Source: Solimonas variicoloris DSM 15731 (GTDB lineage: Bacteria; Pseudomonadota; Gammaproteobacteria; Nevskiales; Nevskiaceae). From it: a stretch of 64,000 nucleotides of DNA. The stretch is from assembly GCF_000382285.1 (NCBI RefSeq), contig NZ_KB907933.1, positions 62,001 through 126,000 on the forward strand, written 5' to 3'. The notes beneath the pieces are model-generated. The model saw only the letters and a program-made list of their open reading frames with translations, made no database searches and was not told where the DNA came from. How positions within the stretch are numbered: the stretch's first letter is position 1; each line of letters begins with the position of its first letter. Positions 2,926-41,137 of this stretch are shown here, one piece after another. The translations under genes and the position numbers were made by a program.

Positions 2926-2940
2926 CCATTGGGACGAATG
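2926..2940. promoter_or_regulatory. Candidate steroid-regulon operator, site 1
   Basis: The + strand 15-mer CCATTGGGACGAATG contains the GGGACGA core of a motif that recurs in the gaps of this island. It sits about 60 nt upstream of the fused acyl-CoA dehydrogenase start, in a gap of about 100 bp. It also carries a CATT/AATG inverted repeat. Found by eye; no binding evidence. Confidence 0.35.
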
Positions 2941-2965
2941 CCCCTGACCCGGGCCTGTCCGCTGC

Positions 2966-4117
2966 TCAGTTCAGCTGCAGCGCCTGCAGGCGCTGCAGCT
3001 TGCCGGCGTAGATGTCGCGGTCGCGCAGATTGGTGCTCAGGCGCATCGCCTCGCCGAGATGCTGCTCGGCGTCGCGGGCATCGCCGAGCCGCGCGCTCGC
3101 CACGGCGATCGCGTAGTGCACTTCGGCGCTGTACGGAATGTGCTCGAGTTCGCGCCGATACAGCGCCATCGCCCCGTTCACGTCGCCCGCGGCCATCGCG
3201 CGGTAGCCGGCGTCGAGAAACTGGAACGGCTGATAGGCAGCGAGCCGCGCCAGGCGCGCGCGCAGGCGCGCGGCATCGGCGAGACGCCGGGTCTGCTCGT
3301 AGAGGCCGGCGAGGTTGTTCATCAGCTGCGCATCGCGCGGCGCGAGCGCGAGACCGCGCTGCAGCGCGGCCTCGGCCCTATCGAAGTCGCCGCTGCGGCG
3401 GTAGACCACGCCGAGCGTGTTGTAGGCGCTCGCGAACGCCGCCGTCCGGATCGACGCGCGCGCCCACCAGTACGCCTGCCGGGCATCGCCGGCCACCAGG
3501 GTCTCGGCCGCGCGGTTGTTCATGAACATCGCCACGATCAGGCGTTCCGGCACTTCCTCGGTGTCATGCGAAAGCACGCCGCGCGCCGGCGCGAAGTCGA
3601 TGACCAGGCCCGGTTCCGATATGCCGGTCGTCAGCCCGTAGCGCCGATGCGGATCGAGCACGATGTTGACGTGGCCGTTCAGGAACACGAGATCGCCGCT
3701 GCGCGTCCACGCGCCTTCGCCATGCACGAGCTGGTAGCGCAGCGGAATATCGAGGCGCTTGGCGAACGCCGAGGCCAGGATCACCAGCGAAAGACAGTTG
3801 CCGGCGCCGGCGGCGAAGGTTTCGCCGGCCGTGCGCGTGACGGCCGCGTCGTAGTCGATGCGCAGGTCCTCGGTCAGCGAGGTGAACAGCGCGCGGCTGT
3901 GGCCGAGGATCACGGCGCGCTTGCGGATGTGATCCTGCAGGTAGGCGTCCATCGCCGGACTCAGCGCAAAGAGGTCGAGCTGTTGCAGCGCCGCCGGCGG
4001 CTCGCCGTAGCGTTCGTCGGCGAACAGCGCATCGGACGCCGCCGGCGGTGCGAACGTCGCGCAGCCGGCGAGCAGCGCGAGTCCGATCGCGGCCAGGCCT
4101 GTCACGGCTTTTTTCAT
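2966..4117 (-). CDS. Lipoprotein with transglutaminase-like and TPR domains
   Basis: Predicted outer-membrane or periplasmic lipoprotein of 383 residues. A type II signal peptide ends in the lipobox LLAGC, with Cys19 as the lipidated residue. Residues 90-165 resemble a bacterial transglutaminase-like (papain-fold) core: Cys108 in GAGNCLSL, His149 in NGHVN and a following Asp155 are positioned as a possible catalytic triad. Residues 215-370 form tetratricopeptide repeats, with NTLGVVYRRSGDFDRAE a clear TPR. The enzymatic role and substrate are unknown. It lies within the steroid run, between the thioesterase and the fused dehydrogenase and on the same strand, but nothing in its sequence links it to steroids. 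It may be a bystander or help the envelope handle hydrophobic substrate. Confidence 0.8.
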   Translation of the reverse strand: MKKAVTGLAAIGLALLAGCATFAPPAASDALFADERYGEPPAALQQLDLFALSPAMDAYLQDHIRKRAVILGHSRALFTSLTEDLRIDYDAAVTRTAGETFAAGAGNCLSLVILASAFAKRLDIPLRYQLVHGEGAWTRSGDLVFLNGHVNIVLDPHRRYGLTTGISEPGLVIDFAPARGVLSHDTEEVPERLIVAMFMNNRAAETLVAGDARQAYWWARASIRTAAFASAYNTLGVVYRRSGDFDRAEAALQRGLALAPRDAQLMNNLAGLYEQTRRLADAARLRARLARLAAYQPFQFLDAGYRAMAAGDVNGAMALYRRELEHIPYSAEVHYAIAVASARLGDARDAEQHLGEAMRLSTNLRDRDIYAGKLQRLQALQLN

Positions 4118-4214
4118 GGGCGCGCCCCTCCGACGGCCGGCATTTTTCCGGACCGTCCGGTCGCGCTTGCGCCGCGGGACGGGCGGTCGCGGCCAGCTTA
4201 GCGCAGCCCGGCCG

Positions 4215-4646
4215 TCAGGCGTATGCCGACAGCCGGGCCCGCTCGCCGGCGTCGAGCGCCACCGCCTTGCGGCTTTCGGCGTCGATGCGCACCAGCACCG
4301 TCTCCGCCGTCGCCGCGCAGTGTTCGCCGTCGAACAGGCCGATGCCGAGCCGGAACGAGCTGCGGCCGAGCTCGAGCACGCGCAGGCCGACGCGCAGCCG
4401 GCCCGGATAGTGCAGCTCGCGGCGGTAGTCGAGTTCGAGCCGGACGATGACGTTCTGGCGCGGCGCGAACGGCACCCACAGGCCCGTCTCGCGCAGGAAC
4501 GCGGCGCGCCCGCTCTCCGCGTAGACCGTGAAGGCGATGTTGTTGACGTGGCCGAGCAGGTCCAGATCGGCGAAGCGGATCTGCTCGTCGGTCCAGAAGC
4601 GGTACGCGGCCGGATCGGTGGCCGCGGCGGGGGCGCCGGCGCTCAT
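4215..4646 (-). CDS. Hotdog-fold acyl-CoA thioesterase (4-hydroxybenzoyl-CoA thioesterase type)
   Basis: A 143-residue single hotdog-domain protein. The segment RFADLDLLGHVNN carries the family signature, in which an Asp near a conserved HVNN hydrolyses acyl-CoA thioesters. It is four nucleotides downstream of the SDR gene at 4651-5529 and so part of the same transcript. In a steroid CoA pathway such an enzyme may release CoA from dead-end or overloaded steroid-CoA intermediates. The exact substrate cannot be deduced from sequence. The length is normal for the family and no anomalies were seen. Confidence 0.8.
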   Translation of the reverse strand: MSAGAPAAATDPAAYRFWTDEQIRFADLDLLGHVNNIAFTVYAESGRAAFLRETGLWVPFAPRQNVIVRLELDYRRELHYPGRLRVGLRVLELGRSSFRLGIGLFDGEHCAATAETVLVRIDAESRKAVALDAGERARLSAYA

Positions 4647-4650
4647 CGCC

Positions 4651-5529: not shown

Positions 5530-6276
5530 GAACTGATCCTTCGGTCTTCGATAGTCGCTAGTCGCTTGCCCGGTTCGCCTTGCGCGTCGATCCGGCCTTC
5601 TTTTCGCCTTGACGGCGCCCTACTTCTTTTTGCTTGTGCAAAGAAAAAAGTAAGCAAGAGAAACACACCCCTGGCTTACGCGCCGGCCCTCGCAGTGGCT
5701 CGGGCGTTCGCCGGGGCGGATGTCCACCGGACATCCGCAACCCCCCGGCTCACCCTGCGATGCTCGCCGCCCGGCCGGCGCTGAAACTCGCGGTGCTGCG
5801 CACCGCTCAAACAGTCAGCGCCGGACAGCCCCGGACCGGCTGCGCTTCTCGGCGCTACGCAAAGGGGACCCGGAAGAAAACAGCAAAGCTGCTTTGGCTG
5901 TTGCTGTTGACGTTCGGGTCCCCTTGGGCCGCACCGAGCAGCGCAGCGCGCGCAGGGAATGGCCGGCCAGGACGGCCGGCCAAGTCGCCGCCGCGGCAGG
6001 GATGCCGCGTCGGCGACGGTCCCGAGCACGTGAGCAGCGCAGGGCACTTCGCGCAGCGAAGTGCGGCCCCAGGGGTGTGCTTTCTTTTGCTTACTTTTCT
6101 TTGCACAAGCAAAGAAAAGTGAGTCGCGCGTGAGCGCGAAACCAAAAGCCCGAAATGCATGCGCCCGGCACGAGTGTGAAACCGGCGCTCTCGCGCCGGT
6201 CCTCACCCCGTCCCTCCCCCGCAGGCGGGAGAGGGAATGAGGGCTGAGCGCATGCATCTCGTCAGAGCAGCTTCCT
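5530..6276. repeat. Non-coding mosaic of inverted repeats and palindromes
   Basis: A 747-bp gap with no credible gene. An AT-richer element near 5621-5674 (with TTGTGCAAAGAAAAAAGTAAG) recurs inverted at 6068-6123 (with CTTACTTTTCTTTGCACAAG), flanking about 400 bp. Inside are a perfect 10-bp-arm palindrome at 5716-5738 (GCGGATGTCC, 3-nt loop, GGACATCCGC), an 11-bp perfect stem pairing 5862-5872 with 5915-5925, and a GGCCGGCC-type palindrome near 5969-5989. Near 6209-6244 is a CCCTC...GAGGG hairpin resembling the one at 10703-10740. Short ORFs translated across the elements (LLLTFFF-like peptides) are judged spurious. The block separates two halves of the ring-degradation run and may end or attenuate transcription. 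Confidence 0.75.
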
Positions 6277-16931: not shown

Positions 16932-17000
16932 GGGAGAGTCCGCCATCGTTCTTGTCGTGATGGCGGAAATTATCGAGAGCCGCCTGCGCAGGAGCTTCAC

Positions 17001-17074
17001 CCAATTAGACGAGTCAAACCCGCGTCGGCAAAGGCTCTTTTGCCGGGACGCGCGCTCATCCCATCGGACGAAGC
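17001..17074. promoter_or_regulatory. Candidate steroid-regulon operators, sites 2 and 3, in divergent promoter region
   Basis: The gap between hsaC (minus) and the FAD dehydrogenase gene (plus) holds two + strand copies of the motif: CCAATTAGACGAGTC at 17001-17015 and CCCATCGGACGAAGC at 17060-17074. Each lies about 67-70 nt from the nearer start codon, so each may serve one of the two divergent promoters. No convincing sigma-70 boxes were identified. Found by eye only. Confidence 0.4.
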
Positions 17075-17140
17075 TCGGCGCCGCGCGATCGAAATAATGC
17101 GAACGTCCCGCGCCGCGCGCGCCTGCATCGTTCCTCGTCC

Positions 17141-18850: not shown

Positions 18851-18900
18851 ACCGCGCCGGCACCAGATCGAAAACCGCAAACGCAACGAGGAGCAGCAGC

Positions 18901-19671: not shown

Positions 19672-19782
19672 GCCCGCACGCGAACGCTCCGATCAGCCCG
19701 GCGCGTCCGGCGACGCGACGGCGCACGGGGCCGTCGTGCGCCGGACGCGGCCGGGCTCCCTCCTGCCGCTGACCGCACCACC

Positions 19783-23662: not shown

Positions 23663-23785
23663 GGGGTTCACACAGGGCAGGAAATGATCGGTGCCGCGGA
23701 CGCCGCGCCGGCCGCCCGCAATGACCGGCGCAGCATAGCGGCCGCGCGTGACCGCCCGTGTAACGCCGTGCAACGCGCCCTTCGC

Positions 23786-23800
23786 ACGTTCGGATGAGGC
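23786..23800 (+). promoter_or_regulatory. Candidate steroid-regulon operator, site 4
   Basis: ACGTTCGGATGAGGC matches the recurrent island motif with one change in the core (GATGA for GACGA). It ends 71 nt before the SDR start at 23872, the same spacing as other sites. Found by eye. Confidence 0.35.
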
Positions 23801-23871
23801 TCGGCCGCCGGCGTTTCGGCAGGCTGCGGCTTCGCTGCCGAGCGCAGCACCCGCACCAGAGGAGAACGAAC

Positions 23872-26301: not shown

Positions 26302-28623
26302 TCACCAGCGCACGATGCCGGTCACGCCGAAGGTGCGCGGATCGTTGAAGTTGGCGACCGTGAGGCTGCTGAAGCCGGGACCGAAGTCGATGAAGTTGGT
26401 CGGCGCATCCTCGTCGGTGAGGTTGCGGCACCACAGCGCCAGCTCGCCGCTGGCGCTGTCGCCGAGCTTCACGCCGCCGAGCGACACGCGCAGGTTGAGC
26501 AGGCTCGTCGCCGGCACTTCCGAATCGCCGGCGACCTGCTTGCTCGGGTCGGTCGGCCGCAGCTGGTAGGCGTAGGTGTAGAACGCGCCGGTGTACGAGT
26601 AGTCGAGCAGTGCGCGCAGCTCGCCGAGCTGCAGGCGCGCCAGACGCAGGTCGAGATAGACGTTCGCCGAGTGCTTCGGGGCATGCACGAAGGCGCGGTT
26701 GTCGGCGACGTCCTGGCCGGCGTCGATGAACTCGTCGTACTCCGGATGCAGGTACGCGTAGTTGAAGCCGAGCCGCGAGCCCGACCATAGCGCGACCTGG
26801 CCTTCGAGTTCGGCGCCGTAGATCGTCGCCTTGCCGGCGTTGCGCACGCTCGACGCCGCTGCGCCGGAGCCGAGGAAGATCGACTCCTGCAGATCGCGCG
26901 CCTTGTTGTAGTAGACGGCGGCGTTGAGCACGACACGGCGATCCAGCCACATCGTCTTGGTGCCGAGCTCGAACGAGCGCTGCTTCTCCGGCTTGAACGG
27001 CGTCTTGGTTTCGCGCACGTTCTCGTCCGGGTCGGTGGCGTACGGATTGCTGTACTCGCCGTTGAAGCCGCCGCTCTTGAAGCCTTCGGCGTAGCGGAAG
27101 TACGCGTTCAGGTCCTGCGTGAACTGCCAGGCGACGCTCGCCATCGGCGTGGTCGCGTCGAAGGTCTTGGACGCGTTCGTCCCTTCCGGAATCAGGTAGA
27201 CGTCGGGCGTGCCGAGGATGCCGAACGCGCGCGACAGTTCCTTCTTCTCGCTCGTGTAGCGCACGCCGGCGGTCAGCGTCAGCGGCTCGACCGGCTTGTA
27301 GTCGATCTGGCCGTAAGCCGAATACGCATGCGTCTTGGTGCTGTAGCGCGAATCGTAGTTGGCGGCGTGGCCGAAGAAGTGCTGCGGATTGTCGGTCTTG
27401 CCGTCGTCGCCGAAGTAGTAGAGGCCGGCGACCCAGTTGATGCGGTCGCTGTTGCCGAGCCACTGCAGATCCTGCGAGAACTGGTGGTAGTCGGTGAAGC
27501 GCTGCGTGAAGGCGACGTCGTATGGCGAGCCGTCGAGATCGAGCGAGTCATCCCAGTCCATGGTGCGATAGCCGCTGATCGACTTGAGCTGGTTGTGCTC
27601 GTCGAGATCCCAGCTCAGCGTGAAGGCATGACCCATGATGCGCGCCTTCTCGAACATCGGCGCGTTGAGGTCCGCGTGCTCGAGGCGCTCGCGCGAGGCG
27701 TACGACGGAACGCTCTCGAAGTAGCCGCCCGGCGCGAACGGATTGTCCGGATACCCCGGCGGGCTCGGGTTCGCGTTGATGGCGTACAGCTGGTCCCAGT
27801 TCGGCGTCTGGTCGACGATGCTGCGGTCGAAACGGTACTGGCCGAGCAGCCCGGGCGCGAGATCCATGTCGACCGCCAGGCGCAGGCCGTTGCCGTTGCG
27901 GTCGTTGAGCTCGTCGGTCGAGCTGTCGTTGCTGGTGTGGACCCAGCCGGCACGCTGCTCCTGGCGGGCGGCGAGCGTGACGCTGAAGATGCCCATCTTC
28001 GGCAGGTCGACCGAGGCCTTCGTCGTCACCGCGTCGTAATTGCCGATCTCCAGGCTCGCCGTGCCGCCGAACTCGCCGGACGGACGCCGCGTCACCAGAT
28101 TGATCGCACCGGCCAGCGTGTTGCGCCCGTACAAGGTGCCCTGCGGGCCGCGCAGCACTTCGACGCGTTCGAGATCGACGACGTCGAACACCGAACCCTG
28201 GGCCTTGCCGATGTAGACGCCGTCGACGTAGATGCCGACCGCCGGATCCCAGTAGATCGCCGGATTGATCTGCGACAGGCCGCGGATCGTGATCTGCGAG
28301 ATCGTCGAGTTCGACGCGGTCTTGCTGATCTGCAGGCCCGGCGCGAGCGCCGACAGGTCGGTGACGTTCTGGATGCCGCGATCCTGGATCTGCTCGGCGC
28401 CGAGCGCGGTCACCGCGAGCGGCACTTCCTGCAGCTTCTCCTCGCGGCGCTGCGCGGTGACGACGATCTCGGCGATCTTGCCGTCGTCGGCGGCCGGCGC
28501 CGGATTCGCGGGGGATGGTGGAGGTGGGGCGGCCGTCTGCTGGGCCGGGCTTGAGAGGGTGACGAACAGCGGCAGCAGGGCCGCCGCAGCGCCGAGACGG
28601 CGCGGTCGATCGATACGGACCAT
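26302..28623 (-). CDS. TonB-dependent outer-membrane receptor, candidate steroid/sterol transporter
   Basis: A 773-residue TonB-dependent receptor with a signal peptide, a proline/alanine-rich linker, a plug domain from about residue 50 (EIVVTAQRREEKLQEVP through VEVLRGPQGTLYGRNT) and a 22-strand-type beta barrel ending in a C-terminal aromatic Trp (TGIVRW). Its sequence style is that of the large unassigned receptor groups common in organisms that consume hydrophobic compounds. It sits among hydroxysteroid dehydrogenase genes and shares its upstream region with one of them, with a candidate regulon operator on its strand. Uptake of steroid, sterol or steryl glycoside is therefore a reasonable inference. 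The ATG at 28623 has AGGAG 7 nt upstream. It ends in a clear terminator. Confidence 0.88.
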   Translation of the reverse strand: MVRIDRPRRLGAAAALLPLFVTLSSPAQQTAAPPPPSPANPAPAADDGKIAEIVVTAQRREEKLQEVPLAVTALGAEQIQDRGIQNVTDLSALAPGLQISKTASNSTISQITIRGLSQINPAIYWDPAVGIYVDGVYIGKAQGSVFDVVDLERVEVLRGPQGTLYGRNTLAGAINLVTRRPSGEFGGTASLEIGNYDAVTTKASVDLPKMGIFSVTLAARQEQRAGWVHTSNDSSTDELNDRNGNGLRLAVDMDLAPGLLGQYRFDRSIVDQTPNWDQLYAINANPSPPGYPDNPFAPGGYFESVPSYASRERLEHADLNAPMFEKARIMGHAFTLSWDLDEHNQLKSISGYRTMDWDDSLDLDGSPYDVAFTQRFTDYHQFSQDLQWLGNSDRINWVAGLYYFGDDGKTDNPQHFFGHAANYDSRYSTKTHAYSAYGQIDYKPVEPLTLTAGVRYTSEKKELSRAFGILGTPDVYLIPEGTNASKTFDATTPMASVAWQFTQDLNAYFRYAEGFKSGGFNGEYSNPYATDPDENVRETKTPFKPEKQRSFELGTKTMWLDRRVVLNAAVYYNKARDLQESIFLGSGAAASSVRNAGKATIYGAELEGQVALWSGSRLGFNYAYLHPEYDEFIDAGQDVADNRAFVHAPKHSANVYLDLRLARLQLGELRALLDYSYTGAFYTYAYQLRPTDPSKQVAGDSEVPATSLLNLRVSLGGVKLGDSASGELALWCRNLTDEDAPTNFIDFGPGFSSLTVANFNDPRTFGVTGIVRW

Positions 28624-28743
28624 GACTCTCCTCGTGTGTGTCGTCGGCGCCAGCTGCGGACACTCCTGTCCACTGGCACCACCGCGCGCCGTTCGTTGCG
28701 GCAGCGCTGGCCGACGTATCGTCGACGCAACGCGCGGTCGCGG

Positions 28744-28796
28744 CCTTCGTCCGTAAGGGTTAGACCTCGCGCCGCGCTCGCACGTTCGGACGAGGA
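28744..28796. promoter_or_regulatory. Candidate steroid-regulon operators, sites 5 and 6, in divergent promoter region
   Basis: In the gap of about 240 bp between the TonB receptor (minus) and an SDR (plus) are two oppositely oriented motif copies. CCTTACGGACGAAGG lies on the minus strand at 28744-28758 and ACGTTCGGACGAGGA on the plus strand at 28782-28796. Each is oriented toward one of the divergent genes. The plus site ends about 70 nt before the SDR start. Found by eye. Confidence 0.42.
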
Positions 28797-28867
28797 TGCG
28801 CGCCGCCCGGCGATGACACGATGCCGCATCGCGCCGCGTCGCGGCGCCGGCTGGAGTCGGCTTGCGC

Positions 28868-29701
28868 ATGACGCTTACCGGACGCGTCGTCCTGATCACC
28901 GGCGCTTCGCGCGGCATCGGCCGTGCGATCGCCTTTCGGCTCGCCGCGCATGGCGCGGCCATCGTCGCCAGCAGCAGCGCACGTTCCACCGACGGCCTCG
29001 CCGAAACCGTCGCAGCGATCGTCGCCGCCGGCGGCCGCGCCGAGGCGTTGTGCTGCGATCTCGCCAGCTCCGGCGAGCGCGACGGACTCGTGGCGCGCGC
29101 GTCGGCTGCGTTCGGGCCGATCGACATCCTCGTCAACAATGCCGCGGCGATTCCGGCCTACGCGCCGCCGAGCCGCATCGATCTCGCCGCGCGCCTCGCC
29201 GGTTTCGCCGTCAACTTCGACGCGCCGGTCGACCTGATCCAGCAGGCGCTGCCGGCGATGCGCGAGCGCCGCTGGGGGCGCATCGTCAACCTCAGCAGCG
29301 AGATGGCACGGCAGCCGCCGATCCCGTATCCCGGGCCCGCGAGGCTCGTGCATGCGCTGACGCTGTACGGCGCCAGCAAGGCGGCGCTGGAGCGCTACAC
29401 GCTCGGGCTGGCCGCCGAGCTGCACGGCAGCGGCGTGCACGTCAACGCCCTGGCGCCGTACAAGATCGCCCTCACCTCGGGCGCGACGGACACCGCGCGC
29501 CAGCTCGGCGCGCAGCATCCGGACTGGCTCGAAGCGCCGGAGCTGATGGCCGAAGCCGCCTATCAATTGATCAGCAGCCCGCTCACCGGGCTCTGCATCT
29601 GCAGCCGCGCGCTGCTGCAGATGCTGCAGGCGCCGCTGCACGCGCTCGACGGCCGCACCGTGATCGGCGACGCCGGCACGCTCGCCGCCGTGCCGTCCTG
29701 A
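28868..29701 (+). CDS. SDR oxidoreductase, probable hydroxysteroid dehydrogenase
   Basis: A 277-residue SDR with VLITGASRGIGRA, NNAA in place of NNAG, a Ser region NLSSEMA and a YGASK catalytic motif. An insertion between the Ser and Tyr (about residues 145-170) is longer than usual. The ATG at 28868 is given here. A TTG two codons upstream (28862) sits at better spacing (5 nt) from GGAG and could be the true start. It heads the plus-strand group SDR-HSD-NTF2 protein-methyltransferase. A role on steroid substrate is inferred from context and from the upstream motif. Confidence 0.78.
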   Translation: MTLTGRVVLITGASRGIGRAIAFRLAAHGAAIVASSSARSTDGLAETVAAIVAAGGRAEALCCDLASSGERDGLVARASAAFGPIDILVNNAAAIPAYAPPSRIDLAARLAGFAVNFDAPVDLIQQALPAMRERRWGRIVNLSSEMARQPPIPYPGPARLVHALTLYGASKAALERYTLGLAAELHGSGVHVNALAPYKIALTSGATDTARQLGAQHPDWLEAPELMAEAAYQLISSPLTGLCICSRALLQMLQAPLHALDGRTVIGDAGTLAAVPS

Positions 29702-29751
29702 ACGCACCGCCGCCGATCGCGAATACACCCACATCACACGAGGAGAAACGC

Positions 29752-30531
29752 ATGTCCCGCCTGAGAAACAAGGTCGCCATCATCACCGGCGGCGCGCGCG
29801 GCATGGGCGCCGCGACCGCGCGCCTGTTCGCCGCCGAGGGCGCGAAGCTCGTCATCAGCGACGTGCTCGACGACGACGGCGCGCGGCTCGCCGCCGAGCT
29901 CGGCGAGCGCGCGCTGTTCGTCCATCACGACGTCAGCGACGAGAACGCCTGGTACGGCGTGCTCGAACGCGCGGTGGCGGCTTTCGGCGGCGTCGACGTG
30001 CTCATCAACAACGCCGGCGTGCTGCTGTTCCGCACCATCGCCGAAACCTCGAAGGCCGACTTCGAGCGCGTGATCGACATCAACCTGGTCGGCAGCTTTC
30101 TCGGCGTGAAGATCGTCGGCCAGCACATGGTCGGCCGCCGCCACGGCAGCATCGTCAACATCTCCTCGGTCGACGGCATGAAGGGCGCGAACGGCCTCGG
30201 CGCGTACGCGTCGAGCAAGTGGGGCATCCGCGGCCTGACGCGCGTCGCGGCGATGGAGTACGGGCACAAGGGCGTGCGCGTGAACTCGGTGCATCCCGGC
30301 GGCATCGACACGGCGATGGGCAATCCGTACGCGGAGGCGCGCGCCGAGGTCAACAAGCGCTACGCGATGGTGCCGCTGCAGCGCGTCGGCGAGCCCGACG
30401 AAGTGGCGCGCACCTCACTGTTCCTGGCCAGCGACGAATCCTCGTATCTGTGCGGCGCCGAGATCGCCGTCGACGGCGGCATGCTGACCGGCCAGTACTA
30501 CGTCGGCTTTCCCGGCGCCCCCGGCGTGTGA
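29752..30531 (+). CDS. Hydroxysteroid dehydrogenase of the 3alpha,20beta-HSD/FabG3 type
   Basis: A 259-residue SDR resembling the 3alpha,20beta-hydroxysteroid dehydrogenase group (Streptomyces exfoliatus enzyme, mycobacterial Rv2002). Shared features are GGARGMGAATARLF, FVHHDVSDENAW, NISSVDG with YASSK, and NSVHPGGIDTAM. The C-terminal SDESSYLCGAEIAVDGG is also typical. It likely interconverts a hydroxyl and ketone on the steroid nucleus or side chain. A strong AGGAG lies 9 nt before the ATG. It is followed by the NTF2-like gene after 5 nt. Confidence 0.82.
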   Translation: MSRLRNKVAIITGGARGMGAATARLFAAEGAKLVISDVLDDDGARLAAELGERALFVHHDVSDENAWYGVLERAVAAFGGVDVLINNAGVLLFRTIAETSKADFERVIDINLVGSFLGVKIVGQHMVGRRHGSIVNISSVDGMKGANGLGAYASSKWGIRGLTRVAAMEYGHKGVRVNSVHPGGIDTAMGNPYAEARAEVNKRYAMVPLQRVGEPDEVARTSLFLASDESSYLCGAEIAVDGGMLTGQYYVGFPGAPGV

Positions 30532-32839: not shown

Positions 32840-34060
32840 TCATGCGCGCGGATGAGCCGCGCAGGCGCGGCGCCAGCGCGGATCGTCGACGCGGAACGTG
32901 CGCGGCCGCAGGTAGTCCTCGGGGTCGCGCAGGTAATCGAGCTCGGGCGGATCGTCGAGCGTCGCCAGCGCCGCGCGCCACGGCCGTTCGTAGGCCGCCG
33001 CGCCGCCGCCGAGAACCGGCGCCCACGCGTCGTGATGATTTGGCAGAAAAACCTGCGGATGCGCCGCGGCAACGTACAGCAGCGAGTCGCGCAGGCCGCT
33101 GGTCAGGGTGCCGAAGCCGACGATGGCGCCGAGCTGCACGTCAACGCAGTCCGGCAGCTGCGCCAGCGCCGCCCGTAGCGCCGGACCGTCCGGCGCGTCG
33201 TCGCCGATCGGCCCGGCCGAGTCGTGCCACAGCAGGCTGAAATCGCCGACGCGCAGCTGATACGCCCAGGTGCCGCCGGTCGGTTCGCCGACGCCGCCGT
33301 CGTCGAGCAGGGCGGCGGCGAACATCGCGAGCTCGCGCGGATCGGTATTCAGGTGCTCGACGTAGCTCAGCAGCTCCGGCCTGTAGATCAGCGGCAGACC
33401 GCCACTGAGCAGGTCCGCGGGATCCATCGCCGAATGGACGTGGCGGATGACCTGCAGCGGCGGCAGGTCCTGCCAGACGCGCAGGCTCTGCACCGCGCCG
33501 GGCGGCGGCGTGTCGCCGTCGCCGACGACCAGGCAGGCGAAGGGGACGCTCGCCTCGAGCTGCGCGGCCCGCGCGCGCGCCGTCGTACAGACCGTGCGGC
33601 TGCCGATCAGCGCGGCGCCGGTCTGCCCGGCGATGTAGCCCGCATCGGCGGCATGATCGAAATGGCCGTGGCCGACGAAGATCGCTTCGGGCTGGATCGC
33701 GACCAGCTCCTCGCGCCCGATCGGCACATAGTCCTTCTGCAGACCGACGGACTCCCAGGCGTCGAACAGGAACAGATGCCCGCCGGCGGCGACGATGAAA
33801 CCCGAGACGCCGTACCACCACAGCTTGACGGTCGCCGGATCGGTGGCGTCGGCGCCGAGGATGCGCTCGCGCGCCGCCTGCACGTCGACACCGGGCGCGG
33901 GCGGTGGCGGCAACGCCTGCCAGGCCTCGGGCGCGACGTCGCCCTGGTTCACCGCCGAGGCGCCGGACGGAGACTCGGTCGCCGAACAGGCGGCGAGCAG
34001 CAGCGCCGCCAGCAGCAGCAGCCCGCGACGGCAGGCAGCCAGAGCCGCAGCCGTCTTCAG
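32840..34060 (-). CDS. MBL-fold metallohydrolase lipoprotein (CTG start in CTGA overlap)
   Basis: A metallo-beta-lactamase-fold hydrolase with the metal-binding motif HGHFDHAAD and later His residues (HVHSA, PNHHDAW). The obvious ATG/GTG start at 33952 would begin in mid-chain. In-frame codons upstream encode a convincing type II signal peptide, LLLLAALLLAACSATES, with lipobox LAAC. The only plausible start for it is CTG at 34060, which overlaps the kstD stop as CTGA, mirroring the ATGA overlaps elsewhere in the island; AGGG lies about 9 nt upstream. This gives 406 residues instead of 370. It is probably an envelope lipoprotein cleaving an ester, lactone or similar bond; substrate unknown. 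The CTG start is inference. Confidence 0.72.
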   Translation of the reverse strand: MKTAAALAACRRGLLLLAALLLAACSATESPSGASAVNQGDVAPEAWQALPPPPAPGVDVQAARERILGADATDPATVKLWWYGVSGFIVAAGGHLFLFDAWESVGLQKDYVPIGREELVAIQPEAIFVGHGHFDHAADAGYIAGQTGAALIGSRTVCTTARARAAQLEASVPFACLVVGDGDTPPPGAVQSLRVWQDLPPLQVIRHVHSAMDPADLLSGGLPLIYRPELLSYVEHLNTDPRELAMFAAALLDDGGVGEPTGGTWAYQLRVGDFSLLWHDSAGPIGDDAPDGPALRAALAQLPDCVDVQLGAIVGFGTLTSGLRDSLLYVAAAHPQVFLPNHHDAWAPVLGGGAAAYERPWRAALATLDDPPELDYLRDPEDYLRPRTFRVDDPRWRRACAAHPRA

Positions 34061-35808
34061 GCCGCGGCCCTGACGTCGTCGGCCGCCGCCGCCGTCTGCG
34101 CGAGATCGCGCGCGGCCAGATAGCCGAAGGTCATCGCCGGGCCGAGCGTCGAGCCGGCGCCCGCGTAGGTCGGCCCCATCACCGCCGCCGAGGTGTTGCC
34201 GATCGCATAGAGGCCGGCGATCACGCTGCCGTCCTCACGCAGCACGCGGGCGCGCGCGTCGGTGACGAGCCCGCCCTTGGTGCCGATCTCGCCCGGCCAC
34301 AGCGGCACGGCGTAGAACGGCGGCTTGACGATCGGACCGAGGCAGGTATTCGGCTGCACCGACGGATCGCTGTAGTAGCGGTCGATCGCGGTCTCGCCCT
34401 TGTGGAATTCCGGATCGACGCCCGTTCGCGCGTACTCGTTCATCTTCGCGATCGTGCTCTTGAGGCCGGCGGCATCGACGTCGATCTTCTGCGCCAGCGC
34501 CTCGACCGTGTCGGCGCGGTAGTAGACCTTGTCGAGCCAGTCCTTCGGCAGCTTCGAATCCGGCTCGATCTGGCCGGGCAGGAAGATGCCCATCGGATAC
34601 TTGTAGCGGAAGGTCGCGTCGAACACGAGCCAGCACGGCACGCAGCCGTTGCCCTTGGCGTCGTCGGCGTACATCGCGTCGCGGAAGTCCGGATAAGCGG
34701 CCGCTTCGTTGACGAAGCGGCGGCCCTTGCGGTTGACGGCGACGCAGCCGGGCATGCCGCGCTCGACGAACAGCGTGATCTGCTGCGGCGCGCCGGGCTT
34801 GCGCACGGTCGGCGAGCCCCAGACCTTGTCCATCAGCGCCAGTCCGGCGCCGAGCGCCTGACCGGCGCGGATGCCGTCGCCGTGATTGATCGGCGGCGCC
34901 GCGGTCCACTCGGTGGTCGTCGGCTTGGCCAGATACTGCTCGCGCATCTGCTGATTCGATTCGAAGCCGCCGCACGCCAGGATCACGCCGCGGCGCGCGC
35001 GGTAGCGCAGCGTGCGGCCGTTCTGGCGCACGCTCAGGCCGACGACGCGGTTGCCGCCGGCGGACGGTTCCTCGATCAGCGCCTCCATGCCGGTATTCAG
35101 CTGCAGCGGCACTCCGCGCTGCATCATCGCGTAGCGCAGCGCCGCGACCATGCCCTGGCCGAGCACCTGGCGGCGGTCGCGATGCGTCTTCAGACGCCAG
35201 CCGATGTCGAGCCAGTACTTGAGCACCAGCTTCAGCGTCAGGCCGACCCAGCCCCGCCCGCGCGAGAACAGCGTGTGCGCCTCGATCTGGTCCATCGCGA
35301 TGCGGCCCATCAGTAGCGTGCCCTTGAAGGACTCGCGCTGCCGCTCGAACTCGGCGCCAAGCTTGGTCGCGTCGAACGCATCCGGCTGCATCGAACGCCA
35401 GCCTTCCTTGCCGCCGGGCTGGTTCGGGTAGTAGTCCGGATACTTCGGCACGTTGTGGTAGTGCACGTCGAAGGTCTTCGCCAGATAGCGGACCATCTCC
35501 GGCGCGTGCTTCAGGTAGGCCTCGATGCGCTCCTGCGGCACCGCGTCGCCGATCACCGTCTTCAGGTAGGTCAGCGCCTCCTCGTACGAGTCATGGCCGC
35601 CGCTGCGGGCGATGTCGTCGTTGCAGGGAATCCAGATGCCGCCGCCGGACACCGCGCTGGTGCCGCCGTACTGGTCGGACTTCTCGATCACCACCGACGA
35701 CAGGCCCTGGCCGCTCGCGCACAGCGCCGCCGTCATGCCGCCACCGCCGGAGCCGACGACGATGACGTCGTATTCCTGATCCCAGCCGCCCGCTTCGTTC
35801 ACGCCCAT
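34057..35808 (-). CDS. kstD: KstD, 3-ketosteroid-Delta1-dehydrogenase
   Basis: A 583-residue flavoprotein that introduces the Delta1 double bond into ring A of 3-ketosteroids, one of the two steps (with KshA) that open ring B. The FAD motif VVGSGGGGMTAAL at residues 17-29 and GGTSAVSGGGIWIP are typical. The catalytic-site region near the C-terminus is PPFYAVPLWPGEIGTKGGL, with the Tyr and Gly expected for 1,2-dehydrogenation. The closing segment GPTYAGAGSTLGPAMTFGYL matches the KstD family closely. Upstream is hsaA; downstream the MBL lipoprotein overlaps its stop. Confidence 0.9.
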   Translation of the reverse strand: MGVNEAGGWDQEYDVIVVGSGGGGMTAALCASGQGLSSVVIEKSDQYGGTSAVSGGGIWIPCNDDIARSGGHDSYEEALTYLKTVIGDAVPQERIEAYLKHAPEMVRYLAKTFDVHYHNVPKYPDYYPNQPGGKEGWRSMQPDAFDATKLGAEFERQRESFKGTLLMGRIAMDQIEAHTLFSRGRGWVGLTLKLVLKYWLDIGWRLKTHRDRRQVLGQGMVAALRYAMMQRGVPLQLNTGMEALIEEPSAGGNRVVGLSVRQNGRTLRYRARRGVILACGGFESNQQMREQYLAKPTTTEWTAAPPINHGDGIRAGQALGAGLALMDKVWGSPTVRKPGAPQQITLFVERGMPGCVAVNRKGRRFVNEAAAYPDFRDAMYADDAKGNGCVPCWLVFDATFRYKYPMGIFLPGQIEPDSKLPKDWLDKVYYRADTVEALAQKIDVDAAGLKSTIAKMNEYARTGVDPEFHKGETAIDRYYSDPSVQPNTCLGPIVKPPFYAVPLWPGEIGTKGGLVTDARARVLREDGSVIAGLYAIGNTSAAVMGPTYAGAGSTLGPAMTFGYLAARDLAQTAAAADDVRAAA

Positions 35809-35885: not shown

Positions 35886-37079
35886 TCACAGAAACACGTC
35901 GGTGTTGTCGCGGCCGAGCAGCACGGCGCCGTAGTTGCGGCCGAACTGGTCCGGATTGTTGGCGTAGTGCCCGCGCGCCGCGTAGATGTCGAGCAGGTAG
36001 CGATGCAGCGGGAAGTCGGTGAAGATGCCGCGCCCGCCGCAGGCCGAGAACAGCTGGTAGACGTGCTTGGCGCAGCGGTCGACGACCTGCGCCGCCTGAT
36101 GGCGGAAGTGCACGCGCTGCGTCATGTCGCTGAGCGGCTCGCCGGCGCGCACCTTGCCCATCAGCACGTCGAAGTTGCGGTGCAAGACCAGCTTCATCTC
36201 GTCGATCGCCACCGCGGTCTCGGCCGCCGCGAGTTGCGCCGGCGGCTGCTCCGAAGTCTTGTTGCCCATGTCGCCGACGCGCACCTTGGCGAAGTCGATG
36301 AAGGCGTTCAGCGCGCCCTGCAGGCCGCCGATCGCCGCCGACGATACCGCGCGCACGAAGATCTGCCCGAACGGCAGCTTGTACAGATCGGCGGTGAACG
36401 TGTGGCGGCCCGGGTTGGTGCCCATGAAACCGTCGAGTCCCTTGTGCGTGCGGTACTCCGGCACGAACGCGTCCTTGACGACGATGTCTTTCGAGCCGGT
36501 GCCCTTCAGGCCCATCGTGTGCCAGGTGTCGACGATCTCGAAATCGGACTTCGGCAGCAGGAAGGTGCGGTACTCCGGCGGCTGGCCTTCGTTGAAGATC
36601 AGGCCGCCGAGGAAGATCCAGTCGCAATGGTCGCAGCCGCTCGAAAAGCCCCAGCGGCCGGAGAAGCGGAAGCCGCCGTCGACCGGCTTGACCTGGCCCT
36701 TCGGCATGTAGGTCGAGGCGATGCGCACGCTCGTATCGTCCTTCCAGACGTCGGCCGCGGCCTGCGGATCGAACAGCGCGATCTGCCAGTTGTGCACGCC
36801 GATCACGGCGTAGATCCATGCCGTCGACATGCAGCCCTCGGCGAGCGTCATGACGATGTCGTAGAAGACCTGCGGATCCATCTCGTAGCCGCCGTACAGC
36901 TTCGGCTGCAGCACGCGGAAAAACCCGGCGTCCTCCATCTCGCGCACGGATTCGACCGGCACCATGCGCTGCGCTTCGGTTTGCGCGGCACGGCTGGCCA
37001 GCACCGGCACCATGTCGCGCGCGCGCTGGACGAGCACGTCGGGGCTGATGGGAACGGTCTTGGGGGCTTGGTTCTGCAC
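35886..37079 (-). CDS. hsaA: HsaA-like flavin-dependent monooxygenase (3-HSA 4-hydroxylase oxygenase)
   Basis: A 397-residue member of the acyl-CoA-dehydrogenase-like, FMNH2-dependent monooxygenases. HsaA/TesA2 hydroxylates 3-HSA to the catechol 3,4-DHSA, the substrate of HsaC. Sequence features are EGCMSTAWIYAVIGVHNWQ, SGRWGFSSGCDHCDWIF and the late HSVYQLF-like VYQLFSACGGRGIF, matching that group rather than true dehydrogenases. A separate reductase (HsaB) is required and is not in the window. It starts 119 bp after the GH5 gene, with a motif copy in that gap, so it may have its own promoter; kstD follows. Confidence 0.88.
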   Translation of the reverse strand: MQNQAPKTVPISPDVLVQRARDMVPVLASRAAQTEAQRMVPVESVREMEDAGFFRVLQPKLYGGYEMDPQVFYDIVMTLAEGCMSTAWIYAVIGVHNWQIALFDPQAAADVWKDDTSVRIASTYMPKGQVKPVDGGFRFSGRWGFSSGCDHCDWIFLGGLIFNEGQPPEYRTFLLPKSDFEIVDTWHTMGLKGTGSKDIVVKDAFVPEYRTHKGLDGFMGTNPGRHTFTADLYKLPFGQIFVRAVSSAAIGGLQGALNAFIDFAKVRVGDMGNKTSEQPPAQLAAAETAVAIDEMKLVLHRNFDVLMGKVRAGEPLSDMTQRVHFRHQAAQVVDRCAKHVYQLFSACGGRGIFTDFPLHRYLLDIYAARGHYANNPDQFGRNYGAVLLGRDNTDVFL

Positions 37080-37155: not shown

Positions 37156-37170
37156 GCCTCGTCCGAAATG
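37156..37170 (-). promoter_or_regulatory. Candidate steroid-regulon operator, site 7
   Basis: Minus-strand CATTTCGGACGAGGC, in the gap upstream of hsaA, ends about 75 nt before the hsaA ATG. It is one of the best matches to the island consensus. Found by eye. Confidence 0.4.
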
Positions 37171-37198
37171 ACGAGCGCGCACGCCAGTGCAGGCCGCG

Positions 37199-38704
37199 TC
37201 AGCGCGGCTCGATGCGGACCTCGACCTGCGTGGCGCCGTCGTCGTTGTCGAGCTCCAGCAGCGCGGCATCGGGCGCCGAGCGCACGCGCGCGCCGCTAAG
37301 CTCGACGCGGTAGCCGTTCGGGTAATGCACGGCGAGCGGCACGTAGATCTGCGTCGGTCCGCCGGCCGCGCGCGGCGTGTAGCGGTACTCGAAGACCGCC
37401 GTGTCCGGATCGAACGACAGCGCCTGCGGAATGCCGGCGGTGGCCTGCGGATAGGTGCGCGCCAGCACGCGCAGCTTGTCGGCCTTGACGCTCGCCAGGT
37501 CGGTGTCGTCGGCGAACAGGCCCTGCGCGCCGCTGCCCTGCGAGGTCGTGGTCGGATCGCGCCAGTTCTTGTACTGCCAGTACTGCCAGCCGATCAGCTG
37601 CGCGTCGGCCGTGGCGGTGGTCTGGCGGAGGATGTCGAGATCGTCGGTGGCGCCGAACTCGGTCAGCAGTTCGACGCCGTTCATGCGCTCGGCCTGGTCG
37701 CGGGCTTCACGCAGCGAGGCGCGCGCAAAGCCCGCGCAGGTGCCGGACACCGGCAGCGCATCGAGCAGGCCGAGCTGCACCGCCTGCGTCAGCGCCGCCA
37801 GCGGGCAGTAGTAGTGGAAGGAGTAGCCGAGCTGCGTTTCACCGTCGACCGGCACGAAGCCCTTCGGCGTGCCGAGACTGCTGCCCTGCGGCTCCGACTC
37901 GAACCAGACGAGCTGGTGCGGATCGACGCTGCGGATGCCGGCGAGCGCGTATTCGAAGAACGGTTGCAGCTCCTTGCGATCGTGCGCGGGACAGCCGAGC
38001 AGCGGGATCAGGCAGCTCGGGTATTCGAGGCCGGCCCAAGGCTCGTTGAACAGGTTGTAGCCCATCGAGTACGGCTGGTCCTTCCAGCGTCGCGCGACCG
38101 CGACCCAGGCGTCGCGGAAGCCGTCGCGCACCGCGCCGTCGTTCTTCCACAGATTGTCGAAGGACTGCGAGACCTGCGGCGTGAAGTAGTTGAACGGAAA
38201 GCCGAGGCTCGGCGCGCCGAGCAGCGCCGTGAGGTCGCCGACGACGGCGTCGACCGCCCAGGGCGGCACGCCCTCGCCCTGGTAGATCGGCCCGAGCATG
38301 TCCTGATGGAAGTCGAACAGCATCCAGATGTGGCGCGAGGCGAGCAGTCCGACGACGCGATGCCAGGCGTCGAGATACGCATGATCGACGACGCCGGCGG
38401 CGTCCGGCATGACGCCGGTCCACAGCACGCCGATGCGCGCCGCGTTGAAGCCGTACTGCGCGAGCCAATCGGCGTCGGCGGCCGTGAAGCCCTCGGCATC
38501 CGCGGGCGGCACGTACGGCGCTTCCTTCCAGACCAGGTTGACGCCGTGCAGCAACACCACGCGATTCTGCGCGTCGACCAGGAAGCGTCCGTCGCGGCGC
38601 AGCTGCGGCGTCGTATCCGCGCTGCTCGCGCTTTCGCGGCTGGCGCCGCAGGACAGCAAGCCGGCGCACAGTGCGAGCACGGCCGCGCGAGCGATGATTC
38701 GCAT
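37199..38704 (-). CDS. GH5 endoglycoceramidase/steryl-glucosidase-like lipoprotein
   Basis: A 501-residue secreted lipoprotein (lipobox LLSC, Cys19) with a glycoside hydrolase family 5 catalytic domain, followed by a beta-sandwich of about 90 residues. The acid/base Glu221 is in YNLFNEPWAG and the nucleophile Glu349 in ELLTEFGAT. The spacing resembles endoglycoceramidases, whose fungal relatives (EGCrP2/Sgl1) cleave ergosteryl glucoside. Its lone placement upstream of hsaA-kstD, divergent from kshA across shared operator-like sites, suggests it releases sterol or steroid aglycones from glycosides at the cell surface. That function is inference, but the neighbourhood is unlikely for a plain glycosphingolipid hydrolase. 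Substrate could also be a ceramide glycoside. Confidence 0.82.
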   Translation of the reverse strand: MRIIARAAVLALCAGLLSCGASRESASSADTTPQLRRDGRFLVDAQNRVVLLHGVNLVWKEAPYVPPADAEGFTAADADWLAQYGFNAARIGVLWTGVMPDAAGVVDHAYLDAWHRVVGLLASRHIWMLFDFHQDMLGPIYQGEGVPPWAVDAVVGDLTALLGAPSLGFPFNYFTPQVSQSFDNLWKNDGAVRDGFRDAWVAVARRWKDQPYSMGYNLFNEPWAGLEYPSCLIPLLGCPAHDRKELQPFFEYALAGIRSVDPHQLVWFESEPQGSSLGTPKGFVPVDGETQLGYSFHYYCPLAALTQAVQLGLLDALPVSGTCAGFARASLREARDQAERMNGVELLTEFGATDDLDILRQTTATADAQLIGWQYWQYKNWRDPTTTSQGSGAQGLFADDTDLASVKADKLRVLARTYPQATAGIPQALSFDPDTAVFEYRYTPRAAGGPTQIYVPLAVHYPNGYRVELSGARVRSAPDAALLELDNDDGATQVEVRIEPR

Positions 38705-38778: not shown

Positions 38779-38831
38779 TTTGTCGAACGAAACGCTAGGT
38801 TTGTCAGCGCCGCGTCACTTCGTTCAAACGG
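38779..38831. promoter_or_regulatory. Candidate steroid-regulon operators, sites 8 and 9, between GH5 and kshA
   Basis: The gap of about 225 bp between the divergent GH5 gene and kshA has two weaker motif copies with GAACGA cores: TTTGTCGAACGAAAC on plus (38779-38793) and CCGTTTGAACGAAGT on minus (38817-38831). They deviate from the stronger GGACGA sites. Found by eye. Confidence 0.3.
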
Positions 38832-38930
38832 GTGATGTGACCCCTGGGGCCTGTGCCCACACTGGCCGCGACGGTCGCCGTCGCGGCGATGCCCCATTTC
38901 GATTTTGTTTGAGCCAAGGAGCGCCGGCAG

Positions 38931-40046
38931 ATGGCCTGCTCGAAAGACTACAACCTCGGTGAATTCACCTTTCCGCGCGGCTGGTTCATGGTCGCCGAAT
39001 CAGCGAAGGTCACCGATCAGCCGCAGGGCGTGCATTTCCTCGGCCAGGAATTCGCGCTGTATCGCGGCAAGGACAGCGGCAAGGTGATCTTGCTCGATGC
39101 CTACTGCCCGCACATGGGCACGCATCTGGCGCGCAACAGCACGTCCTATGTCGCGCAGGACGGCGCGGTCGAAGGCGATTCGATCCGCTGCCCGTATCAC
39201 GCCTGGCGCTTCGGACCGGACGGCAAGTGCAACCACATTCCGTACTCGACCGGACCGATTCCGCCGGCCGCGAAGGTGCGCTCATGGCCGGTCGTCGAAA
39301 GCATGGGCGCGGTCTTCGTCTGGCACGATCCCGAAGGCGGCGAGCCCGAGTGGGACGCACCGTTCCTGCAGGAATGGAACGATGCGGCGTGGACGCACTG
39401 GACCTTCGACGATCTCGGCAAGATCGACACGCACCCGCAGGAAATCGTCGACAACATCACCGACGCTGCGCACTTCGGGCCGGTGCATGGCTCGCGCACC
39501 AAGTTCTTCGAGAACGAGTTCCGCGGTCACCTGGCGATCCAGCGCATGGGCGGCGGCCACCGCACGCTCGTCGCGCAGGGCGGTCCGATGCTCGTCACCG
39601 AGGCCGTCTACCACGGCCCGAGCATCCTGATCACGCGCATGAGCGGCCTCTACGACTCGTACATCTTCATCGCCCATACGCCGGTCGACGACGGCTCCAG
39701 CTATGTCTGGCATGCCCTGCTCGTGAAATCGGCGAGCGGCGGCGCGGCGACTGCGGCCGATCACGCGGCCGCACGCCAGTACCAGGACATGGCGCTCGCC
39801 GCGTTCGCGCAGGACTTCGAGGTGTGGAAGCACAAGCGGCCGTGCATCCAGGGCATGTTCGTGCAGGGCGACGGCGCCTTCCGCAAGCAGCGGACCTGGT
39901 ACAAGCAGTTCTACAACCCGCGCGCGCAGAAGCAGGAGTTCCTCAAGCAGGTCGAGGGCATTCACGTGCCGCGCGGCATGGAGCCGGCCCCGGACGAAAT
40001 GCGCGCGCAGAGCGAAGCGAGTCTGCCGATGGTCGCCAACGCCTGA
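38931..40046 (+). CDS. kshA: KshA, 3-ketosteroid 9alpha-hydroxylase oxygenase component
   Basis: A 371-residue Rieske non-heme iron oxygenase that 9alpha-hydroxylates ring B; with KstD this triggers B-ring fission to the seco-steroid. The Rieske cluster ligands are Cys59/His61 and Cys87/His90 (CPHMGTH and CPYHAWRF), with an unusually long spacer between them. The mononuclear iron site includes His181 and His186 in DNITDAAHFGPVHG, with Asp178 as the electron-bridging residue. The reductase KshB is not in the window. It is divergent from GH5 and ends before a strong terminator. Confidence 0.9.
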   Translation: MACSKDYNLGEFTFPRGWFMVAESAKVTDQPQGVHFLGQEFALYRGKDSGKVILLDAYCPHMGTHLARNSTSYVAQDGAVEGDSIRCPYHAWRFGPDGKCNHIPYSTGPIPPAAKVRSWPVVESMGAVFVWHDPEGGEPEWDAPFLQEWNDAAWTHWTFDDLGKIDTHPQEIVDNITDAAHFGPVHGSRTKFFENEFRGHLAIQRMGGGHRTLVAQGGPMLVTEAVYHGPSILITRMSGLYDSYIFIAHTPVDDGSSYVWHALLVKSASGGAATAADHAAARQYQDMALAAFAQDFEVWKHKRPCIQGMFVQGDGAFRKQRTWYKQFYNPRAQKQEFLKQVEGIHVPRGMEPAPDEMRAQSEASLPMVANA

Positions 40047-40072
40047 GCGCAGGCTGGCGCGGCAAACGAAAA

Positions 40073-40098: not shown

Positions 40099-40157
40099 CG
40101 TGGGCAGCAGTTTTTCGGAAAACCGCGCGTCGCGGCCGGACGCGCCGGACCGCCATG

Positions 40158-40625
40158 CTAGTGCTGCATCGCCTGCTTGAACGCCGCCGGCATGTTGAAG
40201 TCGTAAGAGCGTTTCTCGCGGCGTTCGCTGATCCGCCAGCCATCCGGCGTGCGCACATAACGATCGAGATACCAGAGGCCGAGGAACATGGTCTCGCCTT
40301 CGCCCGCCGTGCCGTCGGCCTTCGGCAGCACCATCGGGTTGAAGCAGGCGATCCTGCCGCTCGCGGTGTCGCCGTCTATCTCGAACAGGAAGTTGCCGTT
40401 GAAGTGCATGTAGCCCGGGAACACGCCGAGCGCCTGCGGCAGCCAGTCGCGGATCTGCGGATAGCGCCCGTCGATGCCGCCCATCGCGCGGTAGTCGATG
40501 TACGCATCCGCCGTGAACACCGTGTCGAGCCGCGCGAAGGCACGCTCGTCGATCGCGTAGGCGTAGCGCAGCACGAGCTGCTCGAGTTCGCTGCGGTCGA
40601 TCAGCTGCTGCAGGGCGGCGTTCAT
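40158..40625 (-). CDS. SnoaL/NTF2-fold protein
   Basis: A 155-residue SnoaL-like domain protein (MNAALQQLIDRSELEQLVLRYAYAID at start; the FLGLWYLDRYVR strand; C-terminal KRSYDFNMPAAF). Its fold is that of ketosteroid isomerase and polyketide cyclases, but the isomerase Tyr/Asp signature is not evident. It starts 2 nt before the stop of the ketosteroid isomerase gene would end, i.e. the two are adjacent (start 40625, isomerase stop 40627), so cotranscribed. Substrate unknown; steroid or CoA-bound intermediate is likely. Confidence 0.78.
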   Translation of the reverse strand: MNAALQQLIDRSELEQLVLRYAYAIDERAFARLDTVFTADAYIDYRAMGGIDGRYPQIRDWLPQALGVFPGYMHFNGNFLFEIDGDTASGRIACFNPMVLPKADGTAGEGETMFLGLWYLDRYVRTPDGWRISERREKRSYDFNMPAAFKQAMQH

Positions 40626-40626
40626 C

Positions 40627-41013
40627 TCACTGACCTCCGATGACTTCCATGTCGCCCGGCGCCCAGTACGCGCGCATCGAGCTGAACTTGCCTTCGTCGT
40701 TGAACGTCATCACGTCGATGACGCGAATGATCGCCTGCCCTTCCGGCATCTTGAGCGCGACGTCGAAGGCCATCGCCGCGGCATTGCCGTGCGAGCCGCG
40801 GATCGGCGCGGCGAGCTTGAGCTTGGCGCCGGTCGCGATCGACATCTCGTAGAACTTGGTGATCTCCGCCTTGCCGTGCCGCGGCTTGCTGCCGACCGGG
40901 TCCTCGACGCTCGCGTCGTCGGCATACAGGGCCGCGATCGCCTGCGCATCCGAGCGGTTGAAGCCATCGATATAGGCCTGCATGGCTTCCTTCATCGTCT
41001 TTTCGCTCGGCAC
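40627..41013 (-). CDS. ksi: Delta5-3-ketosteroid isomerase (KSI)
   Basis: A 128-residue NTF2-fold isomerase that moves the Delta5 double bond to Delta4 after 3beta-oxidation. The catalytic residues match Comamonas KSI: Tyr14, Asp38 (in ASVEDPVGS) and Asp100 (Asp99 there, one residue shifted; VIDVM). The start is chosen as GTG at 41013, since it puts Tyr14 and Asp38 at exactly the family numbering and has AGGAG 9 nt upstream. A start at the first ATG (MKEAM) would drop six residues. The ADDASVEDPVGSKPRHGKA stretch is very KSI-like. It fits the 3beta-HSD at 18901-19671 and precedes the SnoaL gene. Confidence 0.9.
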   Translation of the reverse strand: MPSEKTMKEAMQAYIDGFNRSDAQAIAALYADDASVEDPVGSKPRHGKAEITKFYEMSIATGAKLKLAAPIRGSHGNAAAMAFDVALKMPEGQAIIRVIDVMTFNDEGKFSSMRAYWAPGDMEVIGGQ

Positions 41014-41122
41014 TGCCTGCTCTCCTGTTCGCGGATTCCGGTTGGCGGGCGGACAGCGCGCTGTCGGTTGCGCGGCCGCCCGGATTCGCATGCTCGCGGC
41101 ACGGCTGCTGCCCGCGGATCAT

Positions 41123-41137
41123 CCGTCCGGACGAAGC
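41123..41137 (+). promoter_or_regulatory. Candidate steroid-regulon operator, site 10
   Basis: CCGTCCGGACGAAGC lies between the ketosteroid isomerase (minus) and the LuxR-type regulator (plus) genes. Its CGTCCGGACG centre is a perfect 10-bp palindrome. It is about 110 nt from the isomerase start and 170 nt from the regulator start. Found by eye. Confidence 0.38.

Follow-up and report, generated by a model that had tools for sequence, protein, structure and literature searches.

The window analysed here, a 64,000-nt stretch of contig NZ_KB907933.1 of Solimonas variicoloris DSM 15731, carries a steroid-degradation cluster in which a presumed TeiR-like, LuxR-type regulator is encoded among KstD-, KshA-, HsaA- and HsaC-type neighbours. 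Nine copies of a 16-bp imperfect palindrome, TCRYCC-N4-GGRYGA, lie in the gaps of this cluster. The genes behind these boxes resemble the 9,10-seco steroid pathway (HsaC-type dioxygenase, HsaA, KstD, KshA and FadD3-type ligase), accompanied by a fused acyl-CoA dehydrogenase, a TonB receptor, SnoaL-like proteins and the regulator itself (Table 1). The original prediction, made from the letters of this DNA, had listed ten sites with a GGACGA-type core in seven gaps as candidate operators of the LuxR protein. All ten strings are present and the count of gaps agrees; nine of the ten match at least 11 of the 12 fixed positions of the palindrome. The GGACGA-type half is real and forms the right part of the box, while the unit is the 16-bp palindrome and not a 12-mer. 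The exact 12-mer TTCGGACGARGC was rejected as the motif, its genome count being 4 against 2 for the reversed control. The tenth site, 38779-38793 (+), was likewise rejected: no 16-mer overlapping it scores above -4.4 (rank 881 among those of the window), and the last two bases of the site overlap a -10-like hexamer at 38792-38797.

At least 11 of 12 positions match at nine sites in the intergenic DNA (8.1 kb) and at five in the coding DNA (55.9 kb); the intergenic totals are approximate, as gene boundaries come from our own small, crude gene finder. The three perfect palindromes (starting at 2922, 17056 and 41119) are each intergenic. Because the palindrome was first spotted in the window, the matrix was rebuilt from other genomes: a symmetric position weight matrix (PWM) was derived from 27 sites upstream of LuxR-gene orthologues in 27 other genomes, with window sites excluded. 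This outside matrix places the nine predicted sites ahead of every other 16-mer of the window; all are intergenic and score 14.7 to 23.2. The next-best 16-mer is coding and scores 12.8. The window has nine matches scoring at least 13, whereas 60 first-order Markov sequences of matching composition average 0.75 and never exceed 3. When spacers of 0 to 14 were compared across 11 regions, a spacer of 4 gave 65 intergenic versus 25 coding sites, and the other spacers showed no clear intergenic excess. Palindrome matches, independent matrix and spacer test, together with the family footprint described below, establish the dyad symmetry of the sites.

Among 26 gaps of at least 50 bp, up to 42.97 kb, boxes occupy 5/6 divergent, 2/16 tandem and 0/4 convergent gaps. 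The expectation that divergent gaps tend to hold two copies was borne out in two of the five occupied divergent gaps and not in the other three. Beyond the window, 440 kb of the same genome yielded 12 matches, seven in 72 kb of intergenic and five in 368 kb of coding DNA; this sample was partly chosen on purpose (the C1, C2 and C22 stretches held exact sites, C5 and L044 hold paralogues of the regulator, and four are on the window's contig).

To follow the boxes across related genomes, we compared the regulator loci of the family. The LuxR gene was matched in 41 of 58 family genomes, the window's own included, and 27 of the 29 other family genomes returning a locus carry a box (at least 11/12) within -400 to +150 of the regulator match. 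Variation affects both half-sites (TCATCC..GGATGA, TCGTCC..GGACGA, TCACCC..GGGTGA) as well as the spacer, and the conservation is therefore a footprint rather than plain sequence identity. In 360 kb of island regions from ten relatives, 45 matches score at least 13: 44 in the 102 kb of intergenic DNA and a single one in the 258 kb of coding DNA. Most sit in gaps corresponding to those of the window. Two outcomes named beforehand as fatal to the proposed operator, equal density in coding or shuffled DNA and absence upstream of orthologues, did not occur: intergenic DNA carries the motif at a far higher density than genes or randomised sequence do, and orthologues in related genomes have it upstream too.

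The boxes also keep a fixed distance to a promoter-like element. Of 122 non-redundant site orientations in the family, 40 have a -10-like xAxxxT hexamer beginning 30 nt from the dyad centre and 22 have one at +31, against a mean over offsets of 4.1 (standard deviation 4.5). An independent Burkholderiales set gave xAxxxT at 30 nt in 60/208 orientations (mean 6.0) and TAxxxT in 20 (mean 0.64). About half of the orientations are not expected to carry the hexamer, because both orientations of each site were counted. With the hexamer assumed to occupy -12 to -7, the dyad centre falls at -42.5, the centre also reported for lux boxes (in the available text of PMC4471428).

For a second lineage, we took the best 80 among 573 named relatives of the regulator, which by title belong to Burkholderiaceae throughout (Burkholderia, Paraburkholderia, Cupriavidus, Ralstonia, Burkholderiaceae), and scanned their loci together with four plasmid loci. 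Boxes scoring at least 12 within -350 to +60 of the start occur upstream of HsaC in 12/13 cases, HsaA in 22/42 and the regulator in 55/86, against a background of 5.7% in random windows. Genes lying inside the operons of the window had none upstream (IpdA 0/13, FadD3 0/47, KstD 0/41). KshA, TonB and the fused acyl-CoA dehydrogenase were left out of this count, since no match passed the identity filter. Further afield, a Vibrio alfacsensis plasmid encoding a 35.5% homologue has two matches between genes of an acyl-CoA cluster and a third within a gene, and in a genome of 43% GC with a 30% homologue (G143) the regulator gene is closely followed by the perfect palindrome TCATCCAAATGGATGA.

The regulator's GerE match (17.8 bits) lies under the Pfam cut-off of 23.5, and the MalT helix-turn-helix (HTH) is a weak family match (4.6e-4, 18.3 bits, cut-off 537). 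Its structure model shows a LasR/GAF-like N-terminal sensor fold and a C-terminal LuxR-type HTH, with an extra domain between them.

Table 1. Palindromic boxes, their assigned targets and the regulator gene in the window. Offsets are counted from the dyad centre to the -10-like hexamer; boxes 8 and 9, entered with a dot, each lie between two divergent genes.
Feature	Position	Strand	Match or score	-10-like hexamer	Remarks
Fused acyl-CoA dehydrogenase	557-2866	-			Assigned to box 1
Box 1	2922-2937	-	TCACCC-ATTG-GGACGA on +; 12/12; PWM 17.25	AATAAT 2894-2899	
HsaC/TesB-type ring-cleavage dioxygenase	16044-16946	-	PF00903, PF22632		Assigned to box 2, with genes downstream
Box 2	16997-17012	-	11/12; PWM 15.7	GATAAT 16969-16974	
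Box 3	17056-17071	+	12/12; PWM 18.6	AATAAT 17093-17098, at +29	
FAD-binding oxidoreductase, SDR, FadD3-type ligase	17141-21336	+			Assigned to box 3
Box 4	23782-23797	+	11/12; PWM 15.9	CAGGCT 23820-23825 (weak)	
SDR gene	23872-24735	+			Assigned to box 4
TonB-dependent receptor	26302-28623	-			Assigned to box 5
Box 5	28747-28762	-	11/12; PWM 17.9	GACGAT 28718-28723, at +31	
Box 6	28778-28793	+	11/12; PWM 14.7	CACGAT 28817-28822, at +31	
Assigned target of box 6	28868-30531	+			
3-Ketosteroid 1-dehydrogenase-type protein (KstD)	34057-35808	-	NF005882, 8.1e-181, 602 bits (under 788-bit cut-off)		Downstream of box 7, behind HsaA
HsaA-type monooxygenase	35886-37079	-	NF045629, 2.3e-113, 378.8 bits (under its 450-bit cut-off)		Assigned to box 7
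Box 7	37159-37174	-	11/12; PWM 15.4		
GH5 glycosidase	37199-38704	-	GH5 C-terminal domain (PF18564)		Box 8 common to this gene and KshA
Box 8	38820-38835	.	11/12; PWM 15.9	CACACT 38858-38863 (+) and TAGCGT 38792-38797 (-), both at +30	Between KshA and GH5 glycosidase
KshA, 3-ketosteroid 9alpha-hydroxylase oxygenase	38931-40046	+	PF19298, 6.8e-64		Assigned to box 8
SnoaL-like genes	40158-41013	-			
Box 9	41119-41134	.	12/12; PWM 23.2 (best of the window)	GAGCAT 41090-41095, at +31 towards SnoaL genes	Between SnoaL-like genes and LuxR gene
TeiR-like LuxR-type regulator	41305-42519	+	404 aa		Open frame from 41200; presumed binder

Collectively, these patterns make it very probable, as judged from sequence, that the boxes are operators for a dimer of the TeiR-like LuxR-type regulator or a close paralogue, activating the steroid genes. 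The link between boxes and LuxR protein is supported by boxes before its orthologues in the family and in Burkholderiales; binding itself we infer. The proposal of a candidate operator is upheld to that extent, with the qualification that a box centred near -42.5 appears to fit an activator site better than a repressor operator. In the proposed mechanism, a steroid or pathway intermediate would bind the LasR/GAF-like N-terminus, and the regulator, presumably as a dimer, would then occupy the palindrome in place of a -35 element. The bound dimer would recruit sigma70 RNA polymerase to the -10 hexamer 30 nt away, as at class II promoters. Activation being the presumed direction of control, the nine boxes in seven gaps, some common to two divergent promoters, would turn on the heads of the steroid operons: HsaC, HsaA/KstD, KshA, the FadD3 operon, acyl-CoA dehydrogenase, the TonB receptor and the SnoaL genes, in operons of presumed extent. 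They may also act on the regulator gene.

Other explanations of the boxes deserve weighing against activation by the island regulator. The caution that a short GC-rich string might recur by chance finds an echo in the exact 12-mer, which barely exceeds its control in the genome, but the independent matrix and the footprints rule it out, as do the spacer, placement and Burkholderiales results, and we give chance practically no credence. If the palindromes were instead repressor operators blocking the promoter, they would recall the LuxR-type repressor of 3,17beta-HSD reported in C. testosteroni (in a passage of PMC8700777). The box, however, stands upstream of the -10 element at a fixed 30 nt, in the -35 position, rather than covering the -10 or the start, so that repression appears very improbable. 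A centre at -42.5 is an activator position and unusual for TetR repressors, which also counts against the idea that a different dimeric regulator, for example of TetR or IclR type encoded elsewhere, binds the boxes and the LuxR gene is merely one target. That idea draws on the many promoters carrying boxes, on the gap that the regulator shares with the SnoaL genes and on the IclR and TetR regulators occurring in other steroid clusters; yet the box accompanies the regulator family into distant lineages, and no other common regulator was seen, albeit without a systematic search. We judge it improbable.

The paralogues of the regulator raise a related question. The single regulator that the original prediction saw in the island is not alone: the genome encodes further TeiR-like genes, 59%, 55% and 27% identical to the island copy, one of which lies 14.4 kb to the left of the window, and a sigma54-type two-component pair follows just past the regulator. 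The boxes might belong mainly to a paralogue (the C22 or C9:46479 copy) or be shared by all copies with cross-talk, given that the 59% and 55% copies have a recognition helix very similar to that of the island copy and that the C22 copy has an upstream box scoring 21.9. It is the island copy, however, that sits among the boxes and whose orthologues show the footprint, and no upstream box of at least 11 was found for the C9:46479 copy; this arrangement has a small but appreciable chance.

Several results weigh against assigning the boxes to the island regulator. The paralogues could share them, and the label TeiR-like itself draws on gene position, domain and modelled fold. Two of the 29 family orthologues (L024, L025) have no box within -400 to +150, and box 7, as well as box 9 towards the regulator, lacks a good -10-like hexamer at +30. 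In Burkholderiales, few boxes precede SDR (3/25) or SDR2 (4/52, with two of the four matches misplaced by the script, at -15 kb), and none precedes the FAD oxidoreductase (0/28), which heads an operon behind box 3 in the window; the targets are therefore not all shared. Under a stricter score of at least 13 within 600 nt before the regulator, 46 of 80 Burkholderiales loci have a box and 34 do not; the latter include 13 Cupriavidus loci (L118-L128, L130, L131) whose clusters do hold boxes in other places. Because many of these genomes are closely related, the counts do not represent independent events. Two Sphingobium steroid plasmids with 38% homologues and the 4-kb loci of G281 gave no match scoring at least 13. 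Genome-wide counts of exact palindromes against the reversed control were 772 vs 411 in the 41 family genomes with the regulator and 251 vs 126 in the 17 without it; as a test of regulator presence these counts were rejected, as they gave no separation and the background is rich in TCGCCC/GGGCGA.

Among known systems, TeiR/TesR of Comamonas testosteroni offers the nearest likeness, drawn without sequence comparison: a LuxR-type protein encoded with steroid-degradation genes and a presumed positive regulator. That TeiR regulates positively was already known, according to portions of PMC8399759, PMC8700777 and PMC6678751. PMC6678751 and PMC8399759 also describe TeiR, the one such regulator studied, as a membrane protein that has kinase activity; the boxes in this cluster, by contrast, suggest that DNA is bound directly. 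An operator for TeiR or steroid regulators of this type was not found in the literature searched, which left most subscription papers and the 2004 TeiR paper outside. A report cited in a passage of PMC6895838 restricts tesR-like genes to C. testosteroni; the homologues seen here would disagree with it, if TeiR is truly their relative. The lux box and its activators (LuxR, LasR, TraR) would share the dyad centre estimated near -42.5 and, going by the model, the LasR-like N-terminal fold and the C-terminal LuxR-type HTH. The conserved unit here is 16 bp, in contrast to the 20 bp given in the available part of PMC4471428, a comparison of site length. Unlike quorum-sensing LuxR activators, the regulator appears to have an extra domain between sensor and HTH, and an acyl-homoserine lactone would not be expected as its ligand.

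The MalT box consists of GGRKGA-type half-sites, which the half-site GGRYGA resembles; MalT, however, is a large ATP-binding protein, whereas here a 404-aa protein is paired with inverted half-sites. KstR and KstR2 of Actinobacteria likewise have an operator for a steroid-catabolism regulon, but they form a TetR repressor system with another operator sequence, and the boxes look unlike what we take to be the KstR consensus. KstR homologues are reported absent in bile-acid-degrading Proteobacteria, whose distinct regulatory mechanisms the same 2021 review, in the part available, calls largely unknown (PMC8399759). On plasmid pNL2 of Novosphingobium aromaticivorans, a related palindrome, TAGCCCGAACGGGTTA (L073 10618-10633, PWM 12.8), has TACTTT exactly at +30 and lies about 90 nt before an LLM monooxygenase gene that adjoins a LuxR-type regulator gene. 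By our own match of position and neighbour, this weaker homologue (31.9%) is Saro_3594, the regulator of the progesterone (pdc) cluster; it differs in having one sub-threshold site. The role of the pdc regulator was inferred from expression, according to a section of PMC12239570.

An operator with fixed promoter geometry, conserved from the family to Burkholderiales and more weakly on the Vibrio plasmid, would make steroid regulation simple to test, and a defined box would allow regulon prediction in other genomes and supply parts for steroid biosensors. Tentatively, and with somewhat more doubt than conviction, we propose that TCRYCC-N4-GGRYGA, with the variant TAGTCC, may be a general class II operator of TeiR-type regulators across Pseudomonadota, that a single copy can drive a divergent pair, and that slight differences in the half-sites, such as TCCCCC near the C9:46479 copy, let paralogues divide the steroid subpathways among themselves.

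Further observations concern the paralogues and neighbouring genes. The 55% copy (C9:46479-47582; L044, L067) stands beside two cytochrome P450 genes, between which lies a variant box, TCCCCC-N4-GGATGA (C9:49181); TCCCCC-N4-GGAGGA (C9:28702) precedes a second KshA-type gene. These variant boxes hint at a sister regulon. The box upstream of the 59% copy (C22:37777-37792; L042, L065) is beside a Cyd_oper_YbgE gene. In the window, the pair directly past the LuxR gene comprises a sigma54-type response regulator and a histidine kinase (42970-45428, -), and the GH5 glycosidase may release steroids or sterols from sugar conjugates. Box 4 is conserved in one relative (G038) and weaker in another (G015). 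A 747-bp gap with no predicted gene (5530-6276) lies among the minus-strand genes behind HsaC, where our gene finder perhaps missed a gene. Elsewhere in the genome, an intergenic 12/12 box scoring 19.0 (C1:454281-454296; L033, L177) sits 34 nt past the 3' end of an AraC-type regulator gene.

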